Source: Vulcanisaeta sp. JCM 14467
Lineage (GTDB): Archaea > Thermoproteota > Thermoprotei > Thermoproteales > Thermocladiaceae
Assembly (NCBI RefSeq): GCF_001316245.1
Contig: NZ_BBDM01000013.1
Span: 1-64,000 of the forward strand
Reading direction: 5' to 3'
DNA: 64,000 nucleotides
The notes beneath the pieces are model-generated. The model had not been told where the DNA came from and did not search any database. It saw nothing but the letters and a program-made list of their open reading frames with translations. The position numbers and the translations under genes are program-made. Shown here piece by piece: positions 40,796 to 48,619 of this stretch (positions within the stretch are counted from its first letter, which is position 1; every line of letters begins with the position of its first letter).

Positions 40796-40830
40796 CGCCT
40801 TATAAAGCATGCTAACTAGCTAATGAGACG

Positions 40831-40888
40831 ATGAGTCCCCAACCAAACCACCCCGGTAGAGCCGGGGCGGAGGGTTGGGGATGATCCA
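40831..40888 (+). ncRNA. Hairpin RNA with its own promoter, twin of the pre-16S leader hairpin
   Basis: ATGAGTCCCCAACC opens an outer stem (CCCCAACC / GGTTGGGG) around an inner stem CACCCCGG-TAGAG-CCGGGGCG, closing with GGGGATGATCC. A TATA box CTTATAAAG at 40799-40807 is about 28 bases upstream. The element at 48563-48619, in the 16S leader, is the same apart from the loop and an inner-stem pair changed from C-G to G-C on both sides. No protein gene begins directly after it. Confidence 0.7.
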
Positions 40889-40983
40889 GGCCTGCCGTTA
40901 AAACGCCGCGACCGCCCCCTGTGGAGAGTGTCAAAATATTGACTGCATCTGTGGTGAGCACGTGAGTAACGGTGGTGATAACA

Positions 40984-41607
40984 ATGGTTAATGCCTGGAA
41001 TGAGAGCGTGAGGTTGGCGGCAATCCTATTGAGGCGCTTGAGGGATTTTGATGAGCGTGGCGTTAAGGCGTACTTTACTCGTGGGTGTTTTAAGCACGGC
41101 TTTGACACTAATTGGCATTATGATGAGCGGGTTAGGCGGTGTTTACGCACATGGTACTTCCGCGCACTGGTTGCGGTCGCCAGCTTGGTACTGCCCTTTG
41201 TTAAGGCATTCGGGAGTAAGTACCTAGTGAGTATTATTGACGAGCTTGACTTGAGCGTGGTAGATACTAGGCATGACTTGCTGAGGGACTTGTCGAGGGC
41301 CATCTACAATGCCCTACTGAGCGGTGGAGGTGGCAATGCGGGTGTGCTTGGGAGCGACGCCAACATGGCGAGGTTGTTGGCCAGGGGCTTGGCGGATGTG
41401 GAGTCGCAGATCGTCAGGGTTGAGGATTTGATGAGGAGGTGTAGGAATGGGGTTGTGAGGTATTACGACGAGTCGTTGGATTGTAGTGACCTTTGGAGTT
41501 ACGATGCGTACTTACACCAGGTGGCTCGATCACTCGAGGAACTGAGCAGGAAGTTCAACACTTCAATTGATGTGGACGACAAAAGGCACTGGTGGCTCTG
41601 GCTCTAG
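40984..41607 (+). CDS. Hypothetical helical protein
   Basis: 207 residues from ATG 40984 (GTG 40972 also possible). Helical; MVNAWNESVRLAAILLRRLR at the start, a hydrophobic helix FRALVAVASLVLPFVKAFGS, and three cysteines near CFKHGF, RRCLRTWYF and DCSDLW. No family recognised. The long inverted repeat at 41617 begins 10 bases after its stop. Confidence 0.55.
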   Translation: MVNAWNESVRLAAILLRRLRDFDERGVKAYFTRGCFKHGFDTNWHYDERVRRCLRTWYFRALVAVASLVLPFVKAFGSKYLVSIIDELDLSVVDTRHDLLRDLSRAIYNALLSGGGGNAGVLGSDANMARLLARGLADVESQIVRVEDLMRRCRNGVVRYYDESLDCSDLWSYDAYLHQVARSLEELSRKFNTSIDVDDKRHWWLWL

Positions 41608-41616
41608 CCACTCAAA

Positions 41617-41842
41617 CCCACCCGCTTATCCTACTCCTCCCTCCTCCCCATCCCCCTCTCGAGCCGGCGGCCCCCTCGGTCAAGGGGCTCCCGGCAGGTG
41701 GGGTGGGGCAATTGGGGCAGATGAAACCCGAGCCCCAACGCCGACAAGCCGGGGGTGCCGCTCACGGACCTGGTAATTGGGGACGATGAAACCCGAACCA
41801 GGCCGTGGGTAGGCGGGAGGAGGAGTAGGATAAGCGGGTGGG
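41617..41842. repeat. Long inverted-repeat element with two internal hairpins
   Basis: Perfect 24-base arms, 41617-41640 (contains CCCGCTTATCCTACTCCTCC) and 41819-41842, flank about 178 bases. Inside are two hairpins whose loops share GATGAAACCCGA: TTGGGGC...GCCCCAA (about 41710-41736) and ACCTGGT...ACCAGGC (about 41769-41803). There are no coding signs. It may be a structured RNA, a terminator-like or MITE-like element. Confidence 0.7.
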
Positions 41843-45528: not shown

Positions 45529-45611
45529 CCCAATAATGCCCGTCCCAAGACAGTATTTATATTACTTTTGCCAAACCCAAGCACTAAAATACGACCACAC
45601 GACAAGCCAAC

Positions 45612-48501
45612 ATGGCAGACAGACTCATAAAGGGCTGGGCAAAAACCACGGCGAGCGCATTAATGAGCGAATTCTGGCGAAAGCACCTACACCCAAGGCT
45701 CGTGGAGGTAATCAGGGGGTTCGGCTATTTAGAACCAACACCAATACAGGAAAAAGCCATACCAATCGTACTAACCGGAGCCAACACGCTGATCACGGCA
45801 CCCACCGGGAGCGGAAAAACCGAAGCAGCCATGCTCCCAATAATGAGCAAAATACTCACCGAGGGCATGACAGGTGGAATCAAGGCAATATACATAACAC
45901 CGGCCAGGGCACTCAATAGAGACGTAAACATAAGACTCAGGGAGATAGCCAACAAGCTAGGCATAACCACGGCCGTGAGACACGGAGACACACCAGAAAG
46001 CGAACGCAGGAGGCAGGTCAAGGAACCACCAACAATCCTCATAACCACGCCGGAGACGTTACAAGTCATCCTCGTAATGAAAAGCATGAGAAAAGCCCTA
46101 AGAAACATCAGGTGGGTCGTGATCGACGAACTACACGAGTTAATGAACGACGAAAGAGGCACCCAACTAACCATAGCCCTGGAGAGGCTCGTTAACATAG
46201 CCGGCGAATACCAGAGGATCGGGCTCTCGGCAACCATCGGAAACACCGAACTAGCCGGACAATTCCTAGCAGGCGTGGGCAGGGAATTCGAGGTAGTCAC
46301 AGCAGACATAACAAGGGACATGGAAATAACCGTAGAACACCCAGAACCAAACGAAGAAGACACAGCCACAGCAGACGAACTAAACACCACACCAGAAACA
46401 GCCGCAAGGCTAAGGAGGATCGTAGAGATAATAAGCAGGCACAAAGCAACACTAGTATTCACAAACACAAGGGACGAAGCAGAGTTACTAGCCACAGACT
46501 AGCGAAGCTACTCGGCGAGGAAGCCATAGGCGTATACCACGGATCCCTAGACAAAGAAGAAAGGGAAAGCCTAGAGGAAGGCCTCAGGAGCGGCAGGGTC
46601 AGGGCAGTCGTGACAACCTCAAGCCTTGAGTTAGGCATAGACATCGGGCACATAGACGCAGTAATCCAATACTCAAGCCCAAGACAAGTCACCAAACTAA
46701 TCCAGAGAATAGGCAGGAGCGGGCACAGGCTAGGCAAAAAAAGCCCTGGGCCACGTAATAACCAGGGACACGGGCGACTACCTGGAGTCCCTCGTAATAG
46801 CCAGGAAAGCCCTAAACAACGAACTAGAGAAGGACGTCGAGTACCACGAAAAAGCCCTCGACGTACTACACCACCAAATAGCCGGAATGATAATCGAGGC
46901 AAAGACAGAGGGCAAAACACTCACGGTAGACGAGGTACTAAACACCGTGAGGAGGGCACACCCATACAGGGAACTAACCAAGGACGAACTAATGGAGGTG
47001 ATCAAGTTCATGGAAAGCAACAGACTCATCAAAGTCACCGAAGACGAAACCCTAACACCAAGGAGAGGACTACACAAGTACTACTTCGAAAACATATCCA
47101 TGATACCAGACCAAAAACACTACAAGGCCAGGGACATGGTAACAAACAAAACAATCGGCGAACTCGACGAAGAATTCGTAGAAACAACCGAACCAGGCAC
47201 ACAAATAATACTAGCAGGCAGGCCCTGGAGAATGATCAGCATAGACAGGGAAAAAGCCGAGGTAGTCCTCGAGCCATTGAACCAAGTCCTCAACGCAGTA
47301 CCAACCTGGATCGGCGAAGAAATACCAGTACCAACCGAAGTCGCATGGGAAACCTGCAAACTAAGGGAAGAACTAATAAACGCAATAACCAACGGCCAAG
47401 ACCCAACCACAGCCCTCACCAAGTACCCAGCAGGTGAAGTGCCGAGCCAACTCACCGAGGAACTAAGGCAACAGGCAACCACAGAAGTCACCAGGTTCAC
47501 CAACGCAGTAACCATAGAGTGGAGGGGGAAGGACATGGTAATACACGCATGCCTAGGCACAAAGGGAAACCAAGCCCTAGCCCTATACCTAGCAAGCACA
47601 TAAGCCAAAAATACAGGGTGGTAGCCACATACGTCACAGACCCATACAGTACTCATAACAACACCAATAACCACACCACCAACCGCAATAACCGAAGCCC
47701 TAAACCAAGACCCAGGCCAGGTCGAGAAAGAATTGAAAGAAGCCATAAGAGACACACGCCTCTACAAGTACAGGTTCATACACGTAGCAAGGAAATTCGG
47801 AGTACTACCCAAGGAAACCATCGACATCAACATCGAGAGACTCGCCAACACACTCAGGGACACACCACTAGACAAGGAAGTCATCAGGGAAATACTCACC
47901 GAAAAAAATAGACCCAAGGCCCCTCATACAACTAATAAACGCGGTGAGGCAGGGCAGGGCAGCCGTAAAGGTCGTGAGGGCCGAGCAATACACACCAACC
48001 GCCCAACACATCATAGACCAAGCCGCCAAGGTAGACGCAGCCGTCCAGGGCATACCAACAACCACAATACTACAACTACTAAAGAGGAGAATCGAAGAGA
48101 GGGAAGTCACACTACTCTGCCTAAACTGCGGATGGCACACAACAATGAAGGTAAGGTACATCCCCGAGCAAATCAAATGCCCAAGATGCGGAATGAGGCA
48201 AATAGCCGTGTTAAAGTACGGCGAAGACCCACTACGGGCATACCAAATAGCCAGGAAGACAAAGAGAAAACAAAAACTAACCAACGAGGAACAGGAGAAG
48301 TGGCAGGAAATGACCCAATCAGCCCTAGCCGTACTACAATACGGCAAAAAGGCAGTAATAGCCATGGCAGCACACGGAGTAGGACCACAAACAGCACTGA
48401 GGAAAGTCCTGCCAAGGGCGAAGACAGAGGAAGAACTCTACCAACAAATACTAGAAGCCGAACGGCAATACCAAAGGACAAAACCATTCTGGAGCGAGTA
48501 A
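45612..48501 (+). CDS. lhr: Lhr-family superfamily 2 DNA/RNA helicase (about five frameshifts)
   Basis: About 960 residues across several frames. Helicase core: Q-motif PTPIQEKAIPIVLTG, motif I APTGSGKTEAA, Ia TPARAL, II VVIDELHELMNDERG, III GLSATIGN; after a break near 46500, VYHGSLD, TTSSLELGIDIGHIDAVIQY and motif VI QRIGRSGHRLGK. After a break near 46745 comes the Lhr winged-helix region (HEKALDVLHHQIAGMIIEAK, VRRAHPYRELTKDELMEVIK) and the beta-barrel domain. After breaks near 47605 and 47915 the tail ends in a zinc ribbon CLNCGW...CPRCGM. Lhr helicases act in archaeal DNA repair or ribosome biogenesis. ATG 45612 is about 24 bases from CTAAAATAC. Confidence 0.9.
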
Positions 48502-48528
48502 TAATACCAAAACCCACGAAGAAAAAGC

Positions 48529-48562
48529 TTATAAAAGAGAGAGCTAATGACACATCCGCACA
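48529..48562 (+). promoter_or_regulatory. rRNA operon promoter
   Basis: TATA box CTTATAAAAG at 48529-48538, 28 bases after the lhr stop; transcription should begin near 48560, just before the leader hairpin at 48563. The same TATA-to-hairpin distance is found at 40799-40831. Confidence 0.75.
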
Positions 48563-48619
48563 ATGAGTCCCCAACCAAACCACCCGGGAACAGCCCGGGC
48601 GGAAGGTTGGGGATGATCC
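48563..48619 (+). ncRNA. Hairpin in the 5' leader of the 16S precursor
   Basis: ATGAGTCCCCAACC ... GGTTGGGGATGATCC, outer stem CCCCAACC/GGTTGGGG with an inner stem CACCCGGG-AACAG-CCCGGGCG. It differs from 40831-40888 by a compensatory change in the inner stem, which supports base pairing in RNA. It lies between the promoter and the 16S processing stem. Confidence 0.7.

Follow-up and report, generated by a model that had tools for sequence, protein, structure and literature searches.

A hairpin of the 16S rRNA leader that recurs ahead of selfish-looking genes and at a gene-less locus in Vulcanisaeta and related archaea

Structured leaders of archaeal 16S rRNA, including that of Thermoproteus tenax, are reportedly the subject of work by Kjems, Garrett and co-workers. 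A second kind of precedent is the autoregulation of ribosomal-protein operons by rRNA mimicry, where an rRNA-like structure is placed in the mRNA leader. The structures in the spacers of archaeal rRNA operons are called well conserved among archaea in a passage of one report (PMC7038931). Here we analyse a hairpin encoded in a stretch of 64,000 nucleotides of Vulcanisaeta sp. JCM 14467 (contig NZ_BBDM01000013.1, positions 1 to 64,000; hereafter the window, on the plus strand of which all features located below lie). As in the known archaeal leaders, the hairpin is found between the promoter and the processing stem of 16S rRNA; unlike what is known of them, it also stands ahead of the genes of a repeated cassette and at a locus without a consistent gene. 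An open-access literature search, which did not extend to the older papers on archaeal rRNA leaders, returned listings in which the hairpin is not described outside rRNA, and the leader hairpin itself may well already be in print. Judging from the comparisons below, the hairpin is almost certainly an RNA element that has been reused outside rRNA.

An RNA family shared by the 16S leader and other loci

Two near-identical stretches of the window, 40831-40888 and 48563-48619, had been singled out in the original prediction, and both are indeed present, with 52 of 57 core positions identical and the same predicted fold, namely a 9-bp outer stem, an asymmetric internal loop and an apical stem (z of -3.4 and -4.2, respectively, against dinucleotide shuffles). 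The first element (40829..40890; core AUGAG-stem-GAUGAUCC) heads a cassette gene starting at 40984, and the second (48561..48622) is located, as predicted, in the leader of the precursor of the 16S rRNA that follows it. The window contains exactly two copies of a shared 14-mer, ATGAGTCCCCAACC, of which the genome as a whole has five, and from these five copies we built a covariance model, R1; a second model, R2, was built from 22 copies. The E values of the two elements (6.8e-20 with R1 and 6.8e-21 with R2 for the first, 3.1e-20 and 5.9e-22 for the second) are all 7e-20 or better, in the case of R1 with a model that was itself built from both copies and three others. A third, diverged copy, overlooked in the original prediction, lies at 39489..39551 and heads cassette gene B (UGAA...CGAU, with A.C replacing the G.U pair; E of 7.3e-8 with R1 and 3.2e-14 with R2). 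The same TATA-like box, CTTATAAA, precedes both near-identical hairpins, at 40799..40806 for the first and, as the box of the rRNA operon, at 48528..48535 for the second; the distances to the ATGA of the hairpin, 32 and 35 nt, are similar rather than equal as originally stated.

The covariance-model search of relatives that had been proposed as a check shows that the hairpin represents a family. R1 produced matches in 18 of 61 genomes, including the one that contains the window (E up to 0.001), and R2 in 20 of the 45 genomes of the order (E up to 0.01), with ten copies in the genome of the window once echoes on the opposite strand are excluded. Across the class, R2 matches were obtained in 20 of 81 genomes (E up to 0.001), one of which, G071 (E 1.9e-4), falls outside the order. 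At gathering score, Rfam 15 recognized only the 16S and 23S rRNAs in the window, leaving the hairpin unmatched; sub-threshold matches within 39400-41000 were far below the cut-offs of the respective families, and there was no Rfam 15 match at four of the nine gene-less loci described below. Being without an Rfam match, the hairpin is an uncatalogued RNA family. We sorted 60 copies by context: 15 are located in 16S leaders, 9 at a single conserved gene-less locus and 36 elsewhere (hereafter outside copies). Left aside in this sorting were G014:C9, G020:C22 and G043:C38 (the last two in 16S leaders), G071:C133 (weak or late matches) and matches on the opposite strand.

The pattern of substitutions indicates that the hairpin evolves as RNA, in agreement with the selection on RNA structure that had been proposed. 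The change of one C-G pair to G-C by two matching substitutions, on which that proposal was based, is real (alignment columns 26-36). In an alignment of 22 rows hand-chosen from 56 (A4), changes on both sides were found at 9 of 17 pairs and 94.7 % of the cells pair; the covariation score of 0.386 compares with a mean of 0.180 (sd 0.014) for shuffled alignments, was reached by none of 500 shuffles, and fell to at most 0.138 when the pairing was slid. Furthermore, G.U exceeds A.C in strict stems (26 against 8, p 0.003, 32 distinct rows), which argues for selection at the RNA level because a palindrome selected as DNA alone should give equal numbers. For this count, 53 of the 56 rows could be parsed, from which we dropped the 10 rows of G003 and G008 with apparent homopolymer-length errors, 4 with low parse scores, L064, L067 and the window copy at 39489, leaving 36 rows, of which 32 are distinct. 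All these tests are to be read with the caveat that the copies were found with an RNA model, that the parsing favours pairing and that related copies are not independent. In G003 and G008 (loci L063, L069, L070 and L078-L084), C and G runs are longer than in relatives, probably owing to homopolymer sequencing errors. The unpaired flanks are conserved as well: UGA on the 5' side and YGAYY on the 3' side are present in 59 of 59 rows, and the longer AUGAG and RUGAUYCA are nearly invariant, although the search models contain these columns. The pair adjacent to the flanks is G.U, replaced by A.C in two copies.

Genomic contexts of the hairpin

The 15 leader copies comprise that of the window, 12 located by BLAST and two at contig ends that were assigned through neighbouring pieces of 16S rRNA; one of them, in G035, is of the type of the sister family. 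The absence of the hairpin from the 16S leaders of relatives, which would have spoken against the original prediction, was not what we found: it is present in 13 of 13 same-family leaders examined, with two more at contig ends. Five same-family members of genus g3 yielded neither a 16S match nor a hairpin and are outside this count. In the sister family f2 (probably Thermoproteaceae; this name and that of f5, probably Thermofilaceae, are inferred), a hairpin of like build occupies the same place in 17 of 17 leaders, with different flanks (AUGUUC...GAGAAA). A search with the exact f2 pattern, which would miss diverged extra copies, gave a single match, located in the 16S leader, in 16 of 19 f2 genomes, unrelated sequence in two and nothing in one. 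In f5, 12 of 15 genomes gave a leader, and most of these fold a strong hairpin there, as assessed by eye. The leader hairpins of the different families are putative homologues. Of all the sites, that in rRNA is thus the widest-spread. Outside copies detected with R2 within f2 are confined to G044. Its own 16S leader is of the AUGUUC type, yet contig C79 (L062) of this genome carries cassette genes with Vulcanisaeta-type hairpins, which points to either transfer or a contaminating contig.

Among the 36 outside copies, 27 have a cassette gene as the first recognised gene downstream (as judged from the start of the tblastn match). The full cassette runs from A through a hairpin to B, C and the weakly DEAD-like D, then through a second hairpin to E, an extended stretch without a recognised gene and F. 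The first gene is B for 10 copies, at 51-127 nt downstream, E for 8, at 27-106 nt, F for 7, at 651-999 nt, and D for two, at 62 and 664 nt. Gene D was matched in 6 of the order's 45 genomes, with several matches each in G000 and G003. The other nine outside copies are divided between five that precede TnpB-like genes, a remnant or a LAGLIDADG gene and four at contig ends with less than 250 nt of sequence left. Specifically, three copies in G011 precede frames with the TnpB-like TNB domain (PF07282; E 1.5e-19, 3e-8 and 1.9e-5, the last being just under the Pfam cut-off), one of these genes being split into two frames; a fourth copy in G011 precedes a remnant of the same TnpB-like element, and one in G021 a LAGLIDADG_3 gene. 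The TnpB-like and LAGLIDADG_3 frames begin about 470-1450 nt past the hairpin. At the G011 loci L075, L076, L156 and L157, the hairpin opens a region of mutual similarity, about 340-490 nt long, in which no gene was recognised. Short proteins of the RuvC/TNB type are encoded at L156 and L157; at L076 both ends remain and most of the gene is lost. A viral origin of the cassette or of the hairpin found no support: gene D has no match in phages or viral contigs, gene E and one hairpin pattern have none in viral contigs, and the hairpin DNA has none in phages, plasmids being outside these searches.

With regard to the 40831 copy, the original prediction erred in describing it as free-standing and leading to no immediate gene, because it is followed by the repeated cassette gene E, the frame of which begins 95 nt past the hairpin core and homologues of which are also located behind seven other hairpin copies. 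The idea of a free-standing form survives elsewhere because a copy without a consistent gene is found at another locus in nine genomes. These nine copies lie behind one gene for a 125-aa protein that is matched in 41 of the 45 genomes of the order, and for this protein (L162-L191) no Pfam or NCBIfam family was detected at a meaningful score. The genes downstream vary between genomes, three of which have a convergent frame next, ending 21-22 nt past the hairpin. Among seven species (seven of the nine copies, without L070 and L078), the hairpin is 83 % identical, compared with 52 % for the preceding and 39 % for the following 100 nt. A TATA-like box is located 59-63 nt upstream of ATGA in 8 of the 9 copies, whereas after shuffling 2.0 of 9 contain one at any position of the 90 nt upstream. 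Taken as a group and on sequence grounds, the nine copies are a real free-standing form. The gene-less copy in the genome of the window looks eroded.

The other two classes have the TATA-like box, defined as a match to at least 7 of 8 letters of the TATA consensus, closer to the hairpin: it is found 30-48 nt upstream of ATGA in 29 of 36 outside copies (1.7 after shuffling) and in 14 of 15 rRNA copies (0.6 after shuffling). Given these distances and the usual archaeal spacing between TATA box and start, the RNA is predicted to begin about 5-20 nt upstream of the hairpin. The 16S-leader copy of G011 resembles the six other copies of that genome over a limited span only, which opens at a point ranging from 14 nt before to 3 nt after the model start and closes 65-76 nt into the model; this would be about the part of the RNA between its expected start and the far end of the hairpin. 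The outside copies do not appear to be a copied piece of the rRNA operon, as those of G011 share only the hairpin and a few flanking bases with the rRNA locus. There are hints, on thin evidence, of hairpin conversion between loci: the copies G000:C5:146651 and G007:C1:125445 are each identical at 57 of 57 positions to the rRNA hairpin of their own genome, the two rRNA hairpins differing by one base, and the flanks of L051 are shared with L058 (73 % over 262 nt, the hairpin included), yet their hairpins are of different type.

In the window itself, the cassette is decayed. Gene A, encoding a HerA/TrwB-type ATPase (37660..38956), is spread over three overlapping frames, either broken or affected by sequencing errors, and both C and D are unrecognised. 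Gene B is a 98-aa frame (39582..39878); gene E, without a known family (40984..41607), encodes 207 aa from the ATG at 40984 or 211 aa from a GTG at 40972; and gene F (42499..44121) encodes 540 aa with an LGDG motif that is invariant in six homologues, with no family found in Pfam, NCBIfam, PHROGs or PDB sequences. The gap between E and F spans 891 nt without a recognised gene. On the rRNA side, the leader segment directly 3' of the hairpin (48616..48636) is complementary over 21 nt to the 23S trailer (53316-53336), so that a joint stem around 16S and 23S beside the 16S bulge-helix-bulge stem is possible. The leader strand of the 16S processing stem (48638..48668) is complementary to the 16S trailer at about 50180-50209, with a bulge-helix-bulge-like centre (GAAC/GUUC). 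The archaeal bulge-helix-bulge pairing of leader and trailer is thus found in the segment behind the hairpin and not in the hairpin. The 16S (48670..50177) and 23S (50229..53294) rRNAs were located by Rfam match.

A cis-acting element of the rRNA operon and the alternatives

The best reading of these contexts is that the hairpin would be a 5'-terminal cis-acting RNA element of the rRNA operon that has been captured by selfish genes. We propose that the hairpin and its flanks are recognised, while the transcript is being made, by a host factor or by RNA polymerase itself. Most likely, transcription through long, structured, untranslated RNA would thereby become less prone to pausing or termination, or the RNA less prone to decay, and the selfish genes would have acquired the element in order to reach rRNA-like expression. 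An elongation-promoting or RNA-protecting signal fits because many of the hairpin transcripts have an untranslated build, and not proteins, in common: untranslated RNA extends over 4.7 kb of the rRNA operon, over about 0.5-1.4 kb ahead of F and of the TnpB-like and LAGLIDADG genes, and over 0.9 kb between E and F. For the more specific proposal of an antitermination-like step, in which the element keeps RNA polymerase going, we would put the probability at roughly 0.35-0.4. Among the functions offered in the original prediction, transcription control best fits the contexts, a decoy is arguable for the nine gene-less copies only, and a kink-turn for L7Ae lacks its outer stem.

Several observations weigh against this proposal. 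Where the hairpin precedes B or E, the leader is short (27-127 nt), and antitermination is not needed for these genes themselves. Nor is it needed for the nine gene-less copies, which may instead supply a short RNA in trans and in which the TATA-like box is 59-63 nt away. The TATA-like boxes are consensus matches and not mapped promoters. Because the leader flanks of f2 differ, the flanks are not conserved across the order. Finally, the antitermination RNA put of phage consists of two stem-loops (as given in part of PMC9378689), and the Vulcanisaeta element of one.

The main rival is a kink-turn for L7Ae, as part of a broader explanation that we regard as rather unlikely, in which the AUGAG...RUGAUYCA end is bound on pre-rRNA by L7Ae, a pre-rRNA processing protein or a ribosomal protein, with the mRNAs as a second target whose translation or decay would be tied to ribosome synthesis. 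The UGA/GA flanks present in every row are what such a site would display (with the caveat on the search-model columns given above), as is the neighbouring G.U pair with A.C in two copies. In Sulfolobus, L7Ae represses its own mRNA through a kink-turn in the 5' UTR (according to a section of PMC5539422), and a C/D-box-like form is predicted for the ligated leader/trailer RNA of archaeal 16S (in the relevant passage of PMC7038931). However, an outer stem of at least 3 bp, as a kink-turn should possess, is present in 0 of 14 rRNA, 2 of 9 gene-less and 19 of 36 outside rows, compared with 1.3, 1.5 and 17.4 after shuffling, that is, without excess, and the flanks of the sister-family leaders are of another sequence.

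It is likewise doubtful that the hairpin is a passive stabiliser, a strong structure near the 5' end that blocks 5'-3' exonucleases and gives selfish genes durable mRNA. The fold is stable and near the expected start in the rRNA and most outside copies, but a stabiliser would need neither conserved unpaired flanks nor a conserved G.U/A.C pair, and in the gene-less copies, about 60 nt from the TATA-like box, the hairpin would be about 35 nt into the RNA at the usual spacing.

Two further explanations appear improbable. According to the first, the gene-less copies yield a short hairpin RNA that acts in trans by titrating a factor that binds the rRNA leader; this agrees with one locus being kept in nine genomes with differing genes behind it, three of them with the convergent frame 21-22 nt away, but it accounts for only 9 of 60 copies, the copy in the genome of the window looks eroded, and a role as 3' UTR of the upstream 125-aa gene is an alternative. 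According to the second, the imperfect palindrome is the left end of a mobile DNA element that inserts behind promoters, the rRNA and gene-less copies being remnants. The TnpB-like genes downstream and the patchy, multicopy gene D are in line with this, as are L075 and L156 of G011, which are 90 % identical over 488 nt from the hairpin on, with no detectable upstream similarity and a TATA-like box in each; against it stand the excess of G.U over A.C, unexpected for a DNA palindrome, the presence of the hairpin in every examined leader of two families, the conservation of the gene-less hairpin above that of its 100-nt flanks (83 % against 52 % and 39 %) and the G011 pair L075/L157, which also shares 300 nt upstream.

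Other candidates can be dismissed briefly. A leader peptide is rejected because its frame is not kept across clades, ATG...TGA being in frame (17 codons) in one clade only and 1 or 2 nt longer in the others, as compared by hand. A pairing of UGAUCC with the 3' end of 16S rRNA is weakened by UGAUUC variants. By inspection, the element is not a box C/D sRNA, its flanks being AUGAGY...RUGAUYCA without CUGA on the 3' side and without unpaired strands of guide length, although some outside copies carry UGAUGA on the 5' side; the consensus in a passage of PMC5539422 is RUGAUGA for the C box and CUGA for the D box. Nor is it, by inspection, a box H/ACA sRNA, defined in part of PMC3608112 by a pseudouridylation pocket together with an ACA or ANANNA motif immediately 3' of the hairpin: its 3' flank is UGAUYCAA, with no ACA or ANANNA, and its small internal loop, which differs between clades, provides no such pocket.

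Returning to the cis-acting rRNA element, one elaboration, which we consider unlikely, combines it with a role in trans: an rRNA-native archaeal RNA of processive antitermination would have been taken up by selfish genes of several unrelated kinds (cassette, TnpB-like and LAGLIDADG), and the short RNA of the host gene-less copy would titrate the same factor. If this is true, rRNA synthesis and the expression of selfish genes compete for one elongation machinery. Our open-access search found no paper on how archaeal RNA polymerase traverses the untranslated rRNA operon without being terminated; the hairpin is a candidate signal for this elongation, for which nature already provides dozens of variants as well as compensatory changes that can be put to the test. 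Beyond this, an RNA family absent from Rfam is gained, along with the prospect of selfish genes that carry an rRNA-like 5' end.

Comparison with known systems

Compared with the autoregulation of ribosomal-protein operons, the Vulcanisaeta hairpin mimics the leader and not the mature rRNA, and no recognised ribosomal gene follows it. The L7Ae kink-turns of archaeal 5' UTRs resemble it in the UGA/GA strands that flank a stem in mRNA leaders, GA being found beside the stem on both strands in all 59 rows (with the tandem G.A sheared geometry putative), and differ in the outer stem, which is no more frequent here than expected by chance; according to an excerpt of PMC5539422, there is no 5' UTR on the L7Ae mRNA of Thermoproteales. 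Part of PMC8116511 discusses a parallel that links aCPSF1 of archaea with the termination of untranslated RNA. The boxA/Nus system of bacterial rrn operons is similar in being an element of the rRNA transcript that serves untranslated RNA, but bacterial boxA is a specific RNA sequence that associates with NusB and NusE (as described in a section of PMC4807359), whereas the Vulcanisaeta element is a covarying hairpin. The put RNA of phage HK022 is likewise a short RNA structure behind a promoter that is used by a mobile genome, about 70 nt in length compared with about 60 for the Vulcanisaeta element. Put, with its two stem-loops, makes contact with RNA polymerase at the zinc-binding domain (according to the same part of PMC9378689), in contrast to a single hairpin, known from sequence alone, in an archaeal host; of the features of put, the pair of stem-loops is missing here, and a structure close behind the promoter is what the TATA-like consensus matches indicate for the Vulcanisaeta element.

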